A stretch of 64,000 nucleotides of DNA. It comes from an uncultured Prevotella sp. (GTDB lineage: Bacteria > Bacteroidota > Bacteroidia > Bacteroidales > Bacteroidaceae). The translations under genes and the position numbers were made by a program. Location: NCBI RefSeq assembly GCF_946407605.1, contig NZ_CAMJOS010000006.1, forward strand, positions 62,001 to 126,000. Reading direction: 5' to 3'. How positions within the stretch are numbered: position 1 is the first letter of the stretch; each line of letters starts with the position of its first letter. Below are positions 43,863-46,217 of this stretch, one piece after another. The notes under the pieces are model-generated. The model was given only the letters and a program-made list of their open reading frames with translations. It did no database searches and was not told the DNA's origin.

Positions 43863-45026
43863 ATGAGTGAGTATCAGTATCATATCTTTTCACCATATAG
43901 GGTTTGCCCGCTGGGTGCCCATGTGGACCACCAGCACGGACTGGTGACAGGTTTCGCCATAGACAAGGGTGTGGACCTGTGGTTCAATATCAACAACAAT
44001 GGTCACGTGCATCTGGTATCGAAGACGTTTGAGGGCGAGGTGAACTTCGAGGTGGATGCTCCCTCACAGGTGAAGGAGCACCATTGGGGCGACTATGCCC
44101 GTGGTGCGAAATATGCGCTGAAGAAACGCTTCGAACTGAAAAACGGTATCGACGGCGTCATCCAAGGATCGCTGCCTGTAGGTGGCCTGTCATCATCAGC
44201 GGCAGTCCTCATCGCCTATGTGATGGCATTCTCAAAGGCCAACGGTATCACGCTGCAGCCTTTCGAGGTGGTGCAGATTGCCTCTGAGGCAGAGCGCGAG
44301 TATATTGGACTGAACAACGGACTGCTGGACCAGGCATGCATCGCCTTGGGAAAGAAAGACGGACTGCTGTTCCTTGACTGCGACAGCAACGAATGGCGCA
44401 TCATCAAGCGTCATCCAGAGATGCCTGAATTCAAGATTGGCATCTTCTTCTCTGGACTCACACGTTCGCTGGTGAATAGCGACTACAACCTGCGTGTCTA
44501 TGAATGTAAGACGGCAGCATGGAACATGCTGGCTTATACGGAGCAGCCTTTGAAGACCTTCGACAAGACTTTTTTGCGTGATATCCCCAAGGCGACCTTC
44601 GAGAAGACACGCATCGCAATGCCAGCACGTTTTGCCCGTCGTGCTGAGCACTTCTATAGCGAGTATCGTCGTGTTCGTCAGGGTGTCACCGCTTGGGAGA
44701 CAGGTAACTTGAAGCTCTTCGGCAAGCTCAGCTTCGACTCGTGTGAGAGCTCTATCCATAACTACGAATGTGGTTCGCCTGAGCTCATCGCCATCTACGA
44801 AATCATGCGGCAGCTGCCTGGCGTCTATGGTGGACGCTTCTCTGGAGCTGGCTTCAAGGGTGCCTGTATTGCCCTCGTCGATCCTGCCCATACTACAGAC
44901 ATCGAGAAGGTGCTCACCCAACGCTATCTGGATCAGTTCCCTGAATACGAAAAGACCTTCCAAGTATTCTGGGTATCGCCTGACGACGGAGCAAGATTTG
45001 TAGACCCCCTCAATCCCCCTGCTTAG
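43863..45026 (+). CDS. GHMP kinase resembling galacturonokinase
   Basis: A 387-aa sugar-1-kinase of the galactokinase family. The N-terminal signature SPYRVCPLGAHVDHQHG differs from the galactokinase GRxNLIGEHxDY form and resembles plant galacturonokinase (PYRICPLGAHIDHQ). The phosphate-binding loop is GSLPVGGLSSSAAVLIAYV and the C-terminal motif GGRFSGAGFKGACIAL. The expected reaction is phosphorylation of galacturonate (or galactose) at C1, with the nucleotidyltransferase downstream making an NDP-sugar. The last seven residues (DPLNPPA) and the stop codon are encoded by the left inverted repeat of the DUF559 cassette, so its original 3' end has been replaced. Confidence 0.85.
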   Translation: MSEYQYHIFSPYRVCPLGAHVDHQHGLVTGFAIDKGVDLWFNINNNGHVHLVSKTFEGEVNFEVDAPSQVKEHHWGDYARGAKYALKKRFELKNGIDGVIQGSLPVGGLSSSAAVLIAYVMAFSKANGITLQPFEVVQIASEAEREYIGLNNGLLDQACIALGKKDGLLFLDCDSNEWRIIKRHPEMPEFKIGIFFSGLTRSLVNSDYNLRVYECKTAAWNMLAYTEQPLKTFDKTFLRDIPKATFEKTRIAMPARFARRAEHFYSEYRRVRQGVTAWETGNLKLFGKLSFDSCESSIHNYECGSPELIAIYEIMRQLPGVYGGRFSGAGFKGACIALVDPAHTTDIEKVLTQRYLDQFPEYEKTFQVFWVSPDDGARFVDPLNPPA

Positions 45027-45471
45027 GGGGAAGCTCTTGCCCCACACATTTTCCTATGATTACATGCAAAAAAGGGATGATTTAAAAGGGTCTAAGTGGA
45101 GGACTGCTGACCCAATGACATACGAATTATTAAAAGAGGATGCTCGAAGTAATCGTAAGAACATGACAGAAGCAGAAAGCATTTTCTGGTCGGTGGTGAA
45201 GAAGAATGCTTTAGGAGAACGTTGTTTAAGACAACATATTGTAGGAGATTATATAGTTGACTTTTTGTTCCGTAGGAGTAAAGTTATAGTAGAGATTGAT
45301 GGAGGTTATCACTTCACAAACGAGCAACAGGAAAACGATGCTCTACGTACTGATTGGCTTGAGCATCAAGGCTACAAAATAGTACGTTTTACAAATGAGC
45401 AGGTTCTATTTGATACTAACAAAGTAATTGAAATAATAAAAGTCTCCCTAAGCAGGGAGATTAGAGGGTCT
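45002..45471 (+). mobile_element. DUF559 nuclease cassette bounded by inverted repeats
   Basis: The left repeat (45002-45031, AGACCCCCTCAATCCCCCTG...) and the right repeat (45443-45471, reverse complement AGACCCTCTAATCTCCCTGC...) are near-identical inverted ends of about 30 bp. Each includes a small hairpin CCCCCTGCTTAGGGGG or CTCCCTGCTTAGGGAG. Between them lies a single AT-rich DUF559 gene. The left repeat ends the upstream gene and the right repeat encodes the nuclease C-terminus. A mobile or homing cassette is inferred from this layout. Confidence 0.7.
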
Positions 45472-45477
45472 TTATGA
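45064..45477 (+). CDS. DUF559 family endonuclease-like protein
   Basis: A 137-aa protein of the DUF559 family, which has a PD-(D/E)XK (Vsr-like) restriction fold. The core is RKNMTEAESIFWSVVKKNAL, RQHIVGDYIVDFLFRRSKVIVEIDGGYHF and the late GYKIVRFTNEQVL. Candidate metal ligands are the Asp in YIVDF and the Glu/Asp of VEIDG. I start at ATG 45064; the ORF track uses TTG 45037, near the left repeat. Base composition is clearly AT-richer than the flanking kinase gene. The C-terminus (SLSREIRGSL) is encoded by the right inverted repeat, and its stop codon overlaps the next ATG (ATGA). Confidence 0.85.
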   Translation: MQKRDDLKGSKWRTADPMTYELLKEDARSNRKNMTEAESIFWSVVKKNALGERCLRQHIVGDYIVDFLFRRSKVIVEIDGGYHFTNEQQENDALRTDWLEHQGYKIVRFTNEQVLFDTNKVIEIIKVSLSREIRGSL

Positions 45478-46217
45478 AAAATATAATTTTAGCTGCTGGT
45501 TATGCAACCAGACTTGGGGAACTCACCAAGAACTTTCCCAAACCATTACTTAAAATAGGCAATAACACTATTTTGGGTAGAATGCTTGATGACATCGATA
45601 CAATCGATGACATCACCGAGCATATCATAGTTACAAATCATAAGTTTGCTCCCATATTCAAGCAATGGGCTGCAGAGCAGCATTATTCCAAACCAATAAC
45701 AATCGTCGACGATGGTACCGAAACCAACGAAACGCGCCTAGGTGCCGTAAACGATCTTCTTTTGGTATTAAACACTCCCCCTAAGCAGGGGGAGTCGGAG
45801 GGGGTCTTGGTGGTGGCTGCAGATAACTTGCTGTTCTTCTCATTCCAGGAATTCGTTGATTTCGCAAAGGCGAAGGGAACCAGCTGTATCATGTGCCACG
45901 AACAACCTTCAATAGAGAAGTTGCAGCGTACTGGTGTCGTAGAGTTGGATGCCAACAACAAGGTGCTGGGCATGGAGGAGAAGCCTCAGGTGCCCAAAAG
46001 TCACTGGGCAGTACCACCGTTCTATATCTATCTAAAGAAAGACCTCGACCTTGTACGTCACTCTGTAGAAAATGGTTGCGGCAAAGATGCACCAGGCAAT
46101 CTGGCTCATTATATGGTGGAGCACACCACAATGCACGCCTGGCCCATGAGTGCTGGACGCTTCGACATAGGCAGTCTCGACACCTACTACGAGGCGGTAG
46201 AGAAATATGGGAAATAA
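45474..46217 (+). CDS. Sugar nucleotidyltransferase family protein with repeat insertion
   Basis: A 247-aa NTP-transferase fold enzyme that joins a nucleotide to a sugar 1-phosphate. Motifs are IILAAGYATRLGELTKNFPK (nucleotide loop and PKPLL), VVAADNLLFF (metal Asp), KVLGMEEKPQVPKS and FDIGSLDTYYEA. It is the likely partner of the galacturonokinase-like kinase upstream. Eleven codons (about TPPKQGESEGV, 45775-45807) are a third copy of the cassette repeat, inserted in frame before the VVAADN motif. DNA left of that copy is AT-rich, DNA right of it resembles the rest of the window. Confidence 0.85.
   Translation: MKNIILAAGYATRLGELTKNFPKPLLKIGNNTILGRMLDDIDTIDDITEHIIVTNHKFAPIFKQWAAEQHYSKPITIVDDGTETNETRLGAVNDLLLVLNTPPKQGESEGVLVVAADNLLFFSFQEFVDFAKAKGTSCIMCHEQPSIEKLQRTGVVELDANNKVLGMEEKPQVPKSHWAVPPFYIYLKKDLDLVRHSVENGCGKDAPGNLAHYMVEHTTMHAWPMSAGRFDIGSLDTYYEAVEKYGK
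45775..45807 (+). repeat. Third copy of the DUF559-cassette repeat, inside nucleotidyltransferase
   Basis: This 33-bp copy reads, as reverse complement, AGACCCCCTCCGACTCCCCC followed by TGCTTAGGGGGAG. It has the same orientation as the right end of the cassette and keeps the reading frame. Confidence 0.88.

Follow-up and report, generated by a model that had tools for sequence, protein, structure and literature searches.

A DUF559 nuclease gene between inverted hairpin repeats: a probable family of mobile elements in Bacteroidota

In the 64-kb stretch of DNA analyzed here (the window), a gene of the DUF559 family stands between a kinase gene and a nucleotidyltransferase gene, with inverted repeats at its two ends and a third copy of the repeat inside the downstream gene. 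The locus raises the question of whether these parts form a mobile unit and, if so, how such a unit could settle in so tight a place. The features that bear on this question are the following.

43863..45026, forward strand: GHMP/galactokinase-like kinase, the upstream host gene, whose stop codon TAG (45024-45026) lies within the left repeat.
45002-45031, forward strand: left terminal repeat, AGACCCCCTCAATCCCCCTGCTTAGGGGGA, with the head AGACCCCCTC followed by the hairpin TCCCCCT-GCTT-AGGGGGA.
45037..45477, forward strand: DUF559 gene, encoding a predicted nuclease, between the terminal repeats.
45443-45471, reverse strand: right terminal repeat, TCTCCCTAAGCAGGGAGATTAGAGGGTCT, inverted, encoding the nuclease C-terminus VSLSREIRGSL.
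45474..46217, forward strand: sugar-phosphate nucleotidyltransferase (NT), the downstream host gene, whose ATG overlaps the nuclease stop codon TGA.
45775-45807, reverse strand: solo repeat, CTCCCCCTAAGCAGGGGGAGTCGGAGGGGGTCT, in frame in a variable loop of NT, to which it adds PPKQGESEG.

The three repeats had been reported in a first-pass annotation, and they lie where it placed them. The window holds exactly three copies of their 12-nt core, CCCTGCTTAGGG, all at the kinase-nuclease-NT locus, and none of 100 shuffled windows held three or more copies, with one mismatch permitted. The two ends had also been described as near-identical. This is true of the cores, all three of which are identical, but the longer repeat stretches are 85-90% complementary, and the left and right ends represent two sub-types that differ consistently in relatives too. 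Other details proved accurate: the gene between the ends is AT-rich (37% G+C in the nuclease ORF vs 52% in the window), the left end supplies the kinase stop codon, the right end codes for the nuclease C-terminus and stops 2 bp before the ATG of NT, and the third copy is in frame in NT. The cassette as a whole is a unit of 470 bp, and the start codon of its nuclease is ambiguous (TTG at 45037 or a later ATG). Because the structure model of NT was too poor (pLDDT 47.7), the placement of the solo repeat in a loop rests on an alignment.

The window ORF matches DUF559 (PF04480) with E=1.2e-29 and 102.8 bits, vs a curated cut-off of 20.6. An AlphaFold model of the nuclease, for which 32 homologues were used, has high confidence (pLDDT 88.8). 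When this model was used in a fold search, only NGO0050 (3hrl) and the catalytic domain of I-Bth0305I (3r3p) were found at E<1e-3, with Vsr a weaker match behind both, and a sequence-profile search put the same two proteins on top (3hrl, E 1e-26; 3r3p, E 4e-7). The fold relation to EDxHD homing endonucleases is at TMq 0.60-0.64. In the 122-aa segment starting at 45109, the residues E23, D51, E62, D64 and H68 are invariant and of catalytic type, and all of them are present in the window nuclease. Judged by its model, the window protein is a nuclease of the Vsr/EDxHD type with a PD-(D/E)XK-like fold and with its acidic active-site residues in place, and is predicted to cleave DNA; the first-pass annotation had given a Vsr-like PD-(D/E)XK fold for the family. 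The EDxHD enzymes are homing endonucleases with a two-metal type mechanism (PMC3943268). Because dN/dS is 0.12-0.26 in most close pairs of these nucleases with dS<1, we conclude that the nuclease is maintained by selection. A role in a defence system was considered and set aside, as PADLOC gave just weak matches, to other nucleases.

If the cassette had been inserted between kinase and NT, related genomes might preserve the empty site, and the first-pass annotation had named clean empty sites as support for its view. Such sites exist, both at this junction and in a DegT aminotransferase described below. In five relatives (L043, L045, L047, L050 and L052) the kinase-NT junction is empty and the genes are directly joined, e.g., GATTTGTAGAAGTATGAAA; in empty relatives the end of the kinase gene overlaps the next gene as ATGA. 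The cassette occupies the same place in L038 and L057, with more carriers in L067-L072 and L074, and about ten species' loci carry a nuclease there. The left-end type of the window is also found at the left end in L057 and L067-L072. The nucleases of the kinase-NT carriers form one clade (support 100/99), which implies that the insertion is old and has largely been inherited. By this comparison of sequences, the window cassette is old at the kinase-NT site and not a recent jump. In places it has decayed, since the L072 nuclease at this site has a premature stop. Short pairs of a left and a right end with no gene between them are present nearby and in other genes. Copies of the window type also tend to lie close to the nuclease: of the 15 copies in G037, 6 are within 2 kb of it, as are 4 of the 26 in G067, where about 0.02-0.03 would be expected. 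In L070 (5664-5791), four window-type repeats stand head-to-tail with a spacing of 36 bp, which suggests local amplification.

The NT loop carries repeats in several relatives as well (L038, L039, L045, L053, L059 and L245), in at least two forms, and the alignment shows it to be empty in most others. In L040, L041 and L060, unrelated short repeats of the QIENRKSENRKS type lie in frame in this loop, which therefore tolerates more than one repeat family. The genome of the window, which is of the Prevotella type, has the nuclease as its sole DUF559 gene, and the repeat core at two more sites outside the window: an inverted pair in an epimerase and a tandem in a protein that resembles the AlkD type in sequence. 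All three of its non-cassette repeat sites (NT, epimerase, AlkD-type) are in frame inside genes. A short tandem repeat, GTGCACTCCAGCGGCGTTGTCTTTATTCCCGTTCTTCCC, in an apparent AlkD-type coding region lies at 1720-1795 of L003, the end of contig C6 of this genome. We also observed eight copies of another repeat class, with the pattern CACCCCCNRCCCCTC, which is typical of other DUF559 subfamilies. As the only DUF559 gene of this genome differs in type, these copies are possibly relics of a lost element.

To learn how general the arrangement is, we considered 200 Prevotella genomes, mostly metagenome-assembled sequences, of which 121 have DUF559, in 1-8 copies each. Inverted terminal repeats, called at a score of at least 14, were present at 62 of 78 named DUF559 loci from Prevotella and other Bacteroidales, vs 2 of 442 control windows, which were of the same length and taken elsewhere in the same loci. 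They also occur at most of 30 other DUF559 loci from a first scan of the genus, and about 20% of the named loci have no recognisable inverted ends. At 73 loci the left end can be folded into a C-rich hairpin of at least 6 bp, a descriptive figure since the hairpins were picked for pairing; the sequence of the arms varies between loci and matches within each hairpin. Genomes with DUF559 have a median of 11 repeats (mean 18.8) and those without it a median of 0 (mean 3.0), kinship being ignored. The mean of 18.8 far exceeds two ends per cassette, and the repeats are scattered genome-wide as solos, tandems and short inverted pairs. The association of repeat number with DUF559 (MWU p=1.6e-14) is correlational and likewise ignores kinship, and it is the same when the genomes are stratified by Y1_Tnp. 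Repeat type follows the nuclease too. At least five copies of the window-type core were found in all four genomes with a window-type nuclease (5, 15, 26 and 14 copies) vs 4 of the 196 others (p=1.1e-6, kinship ignored), many of which bear other DUF559 genes. The first-pass annotation had proposed an association between the repeat and DUF559 as a test of its idea, and the association thus extends to the subfamily.

These figures bear on the alternative that DUF559 is passenger cargo, and that the repeats are MITE- or REP-like sequences moved in trans by another enzyme, e.g., the HUH transposase Y1_Tnp or an insertion sequence. REP systems elsewhere do employ Y1_Tnp (PMC6006769), and the genome of the window has six Y1_Tnp matches. 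Moreover, repeat pairs that contain no nuclease are common, and some genomes with no strong DUF559 match are rich in repeats (60 in G101, 28 in G177 and 23 in G148). Window-type repeats also occur in G008, G027, G151 and G167, which have no window-type nuclease; either loss of the nuclease or the action of another agent could account for such cases. However, among the 200 Prevotella genomes the presence of Y1_Tnp fails to predict repeat number, either overall or within strata, while repeat type tracks nuclease subfamily. In addition, the cargo between the ends is repeatedly DUF559, in dozens of lineages, and purifying selection acts on it. We regard the passenger explanation as unlikely, though it retains a small but real chance.

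The unit appears to move. DUF559 proteins that are 80-90% identical have unrelated flanks in four pairs of loci (L106/L127, L106/L112, L093/L112 and L085/L109), and the nucleases of L202 and L217, which are 82% identical, lie inside two unrelated proteins. Inverted repeat pairs lacking a nuclease have unrelated interiors, also within one genome. One repeat pair, in L307 (570-1420; genome G124), surrounds ~800 bp of DNA other than DUF559, in which a tandem repeat of ~65 bp occurs several times. The element begins A-G-(A/C)-C. At resolvable insertion sites about 2-7 host codons have been replaced and no target-site duplication was seen, the genomes compared being different species. No target motif is visible around the insertions; the bases upstream are A-rich and often come right after a stop codon. 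No excision product was seen in these genomes.

An enzyme related to I-Bth0305I might instead be a strict homing endonuclease, which cuts one conserved host site and is copied from the occupied allele, with the repeats serving as flank-tolerance sequence. Some sites are indeed occupied again and again: the kinase-NT site across species by a single clade, the start of the LeuRS editing domain both in Prevotella and in a second family within its class, and MetH in two genera, while N-terminal fusions to IspF and Gmk recur. Yet such copies at the same site fit plain vertical inheritance equally well. Homing does not disperse repeats genome-wide, as is seen here. Although empty alleles exist, close relatives of the nuclease occupy unrelated sites, and the kinase-NT lineage alone is site-bound. 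A strict homing gene was rejected on this ground, and we think it improbable.

The copies inside host proteins show how far the accommodation can go. Of 105 loci classified, 15 have a nuclease frame that stays open across the right repeat and continues into the protein downstream. The nuclease lies mid-protein in LeuRS, ValRS, the CCA-adding enzyme, MazG and an ABC-F-type ATPase, as well as in DegT aminotransferases, an epimerase and a helicase; its N-terminal fusions to IspF and guanylate kinase (Gmk) are found in many species. Across the phylum, nesting was also found in LeuRS, MetH and the type I restriction protein HsdR, and in DNA methyltransferases identified by sequence. Pfam finds host domains split around DUF559, including in G117, whose genome is a single contig, so that an assembly artefact is less likely. 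The DegT protein of G117 reads VEV-nuclease-SVL and its relatives, which are empty, read VEV-NGE-SVL; PDB 2po3 aligns on both sides of the insert, which is flanked by its residues 184 and 187. In the CCA-adding enzyme, two species have inserts at different sites, replacing 4 or 7 host codons, and each is the empty reference for the other. LeuRS contains the full cassette in L204 and, at the identical point in L094, a repeat pair with no nuclease. In L254, L257 and L204, from different families of one class, LeuRS is split where its editing domain begins, possibly through the same old insertion or else through repeated homing. The repeats themselves translate as Gly/Pro-rich linkers, e.g., APSNLPQLGEA and SPSGGRLEGA, and 17 of 30 window-type solos examined are in frame in long ORFs. 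Together with the three sites in the window's own genome, these bear out the earlier suggestion that solo repeats are left behind. It had also been suggested that the unit inserts without breaking operons; this is borne out, and the in-frame copies go further. To judge from the open frames, copies inside or fused to proteins of core metabolism and translation apparently leave these proteins not visibly broken.

It is conceivable that such inserts are eliminated at the RNA or protein level, as with an intron, an intein or a ribosome bypass, to give a host protein without the nuclease. Inserts of 110-180 residues in core enzymes might be expected to disturb them, and pairing between the repeats is conceivable. 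However, the internal inserts have an open reading frame continuous with that of the host, something neither splicing nor bypass would require (although this set is biased, having been found by open frame), many cassettes are merely N-terminal fusions, and Pfam detects no intein domain in the 15 fusion proteins scanned. We consider removal very improbable. Finally, an ordinary, non-mobile operon gene whose hairpin is due to chance or regulates transcription or mRNA stability would suit the arrangement conserved in about ten species' loci, and operon hairpins often act on mRNA, but empty sites and unrelated insertion contexts refute this as a general account, as do dispersal to many loci and into coding sequence and the inverted ends at most DUF559 genes, and it is scarcely credible.

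Among known systems, the closest in layout are the REP/BIME (REPIN)-RAYT systems, or REPtrons, in which hairpin repeats accompany a repeat-flanked gene for TnpAREP, an HUH Y1 transposase (PMC6006769, PMC3733652). In both, short repeats that form hairpins and share a conserved head are dispersed as singles and inverted pairs, and both have one repeat-flanked nuclease gene in low copy number whose type matches that of the repeats. Identity with REP-RAYT was rejected, as the gene between the repeats here is DUF559 and not HUH/Y1, and Y1_Tnp is not tied to the repeats. The repeats here, unlike those of REPtrons, occupy not just intergenic DNA but also coding genes, whose frame they keep. REPtrons reportedly do not move as whole units (PMC6006769), whereas the DUF559 nuclease itself is found at different loci and inside host proteins. 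With the EDxHD homing endonuclease I-Bth0305I the nuclease shares the profile and fold relation and the conserved E, D, E, D and H residues. In contrast to I-Bth0305I and Vsr, the DUF559 element has no intron, intein or NUMOD-type DNA-binding part, consists of a domain of only ~110 aa with dispersed repeats attached, and often has no fixed site.

Elements that live in coding sequence are also known. Rickettsia palindromic elements (RPEs) are palindromes that enter unrelated metabolic genes in frame and add a peptide to their products; a review describes them only as repeats of ~150 bp coding for a short peptide (PMC10969869). The likeness to our elements, i.e., in-frame palindromic insertion in unrelated genes, is one of working and does not imply common origin, and RPEs differ in that the DUF559 elements have full versions with a nuclease that is itself nested in frame. 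MITEs and PARCELs are spreading short elements, with inverted repeats or as dyad-symmetric coding sequence (PMC10969869, PMC2996958). For the DUF559 elements, no target duplication was seen between the different species compared, and the interiors of their pairs within one genome are unrelated; PARCELs differ as tandem amphipathic ORF repeats with no assigned function. In the open-access literature searched, we found no described mobile element that matches the in-frame nuclease-repeat arrangement, and no link of DUF559 with such repeats or with mobility, although a description elsewhere is possible.

Genome comparison documents movement between loci, empty sites, dispersed repeats, their tie to DUF559 and its subfamilies, and in-frame nesting. 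We consider it probable that the 470-bp unit belongs to a mobile-element family of Bacteroidota, with one DUF559 nuclease gene between inverted hairpin repeats. The best reading is of a REP-like element in which a Vsr/EDxHD-type nuclease replaces the HUH transposase, adapted to operons and coding frames. By analogy, its layout would work like a REPtron with another enzyme, and we propose the following mechanism. The nuclease would recognize the repeat hairpin, cut target DNA, or both. During repair, the element or a repeat copy would be put in, typically swapping out a few codons; repair is suggested because no duplication was seen and few codons are replaced. Copies would then survive where they are harmless. 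Such places are right after a stop codon, with translational coupling to the next gene as in the window; the beginning of a downstream gene, to which the nuclease is fused; and a loop within a protein, where the frame is kept and the repeat serves as linker. Copies that are in frame or coupled may be shielded, as any frameshift in the nuclease gene would damage the host gene too. We infer that the nuclease drives movement, that insertion proceeds via repair and that host coupling protects the element. The fuller proposal, to which we give an even chance, is that of a new mobile-element class moved by its own nuclease, with hairpin repeats as stop-free linkers, nested in frame and without splicing in core proteins such as aminoacyl-tRNA synthetases, the CCA-adding enzyme and methionine synthase, and with a nuclease protected by selection on its host. 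If it is true, part of DUF559, a common family of unknown function, would have a function, and a second enzyme class would stand behind REP-like repeats. There would also be a mobile element that lives in core proteins without splicing, and the odd ‘DUF559 fusions’ of Bacteroidota would be directly explained.
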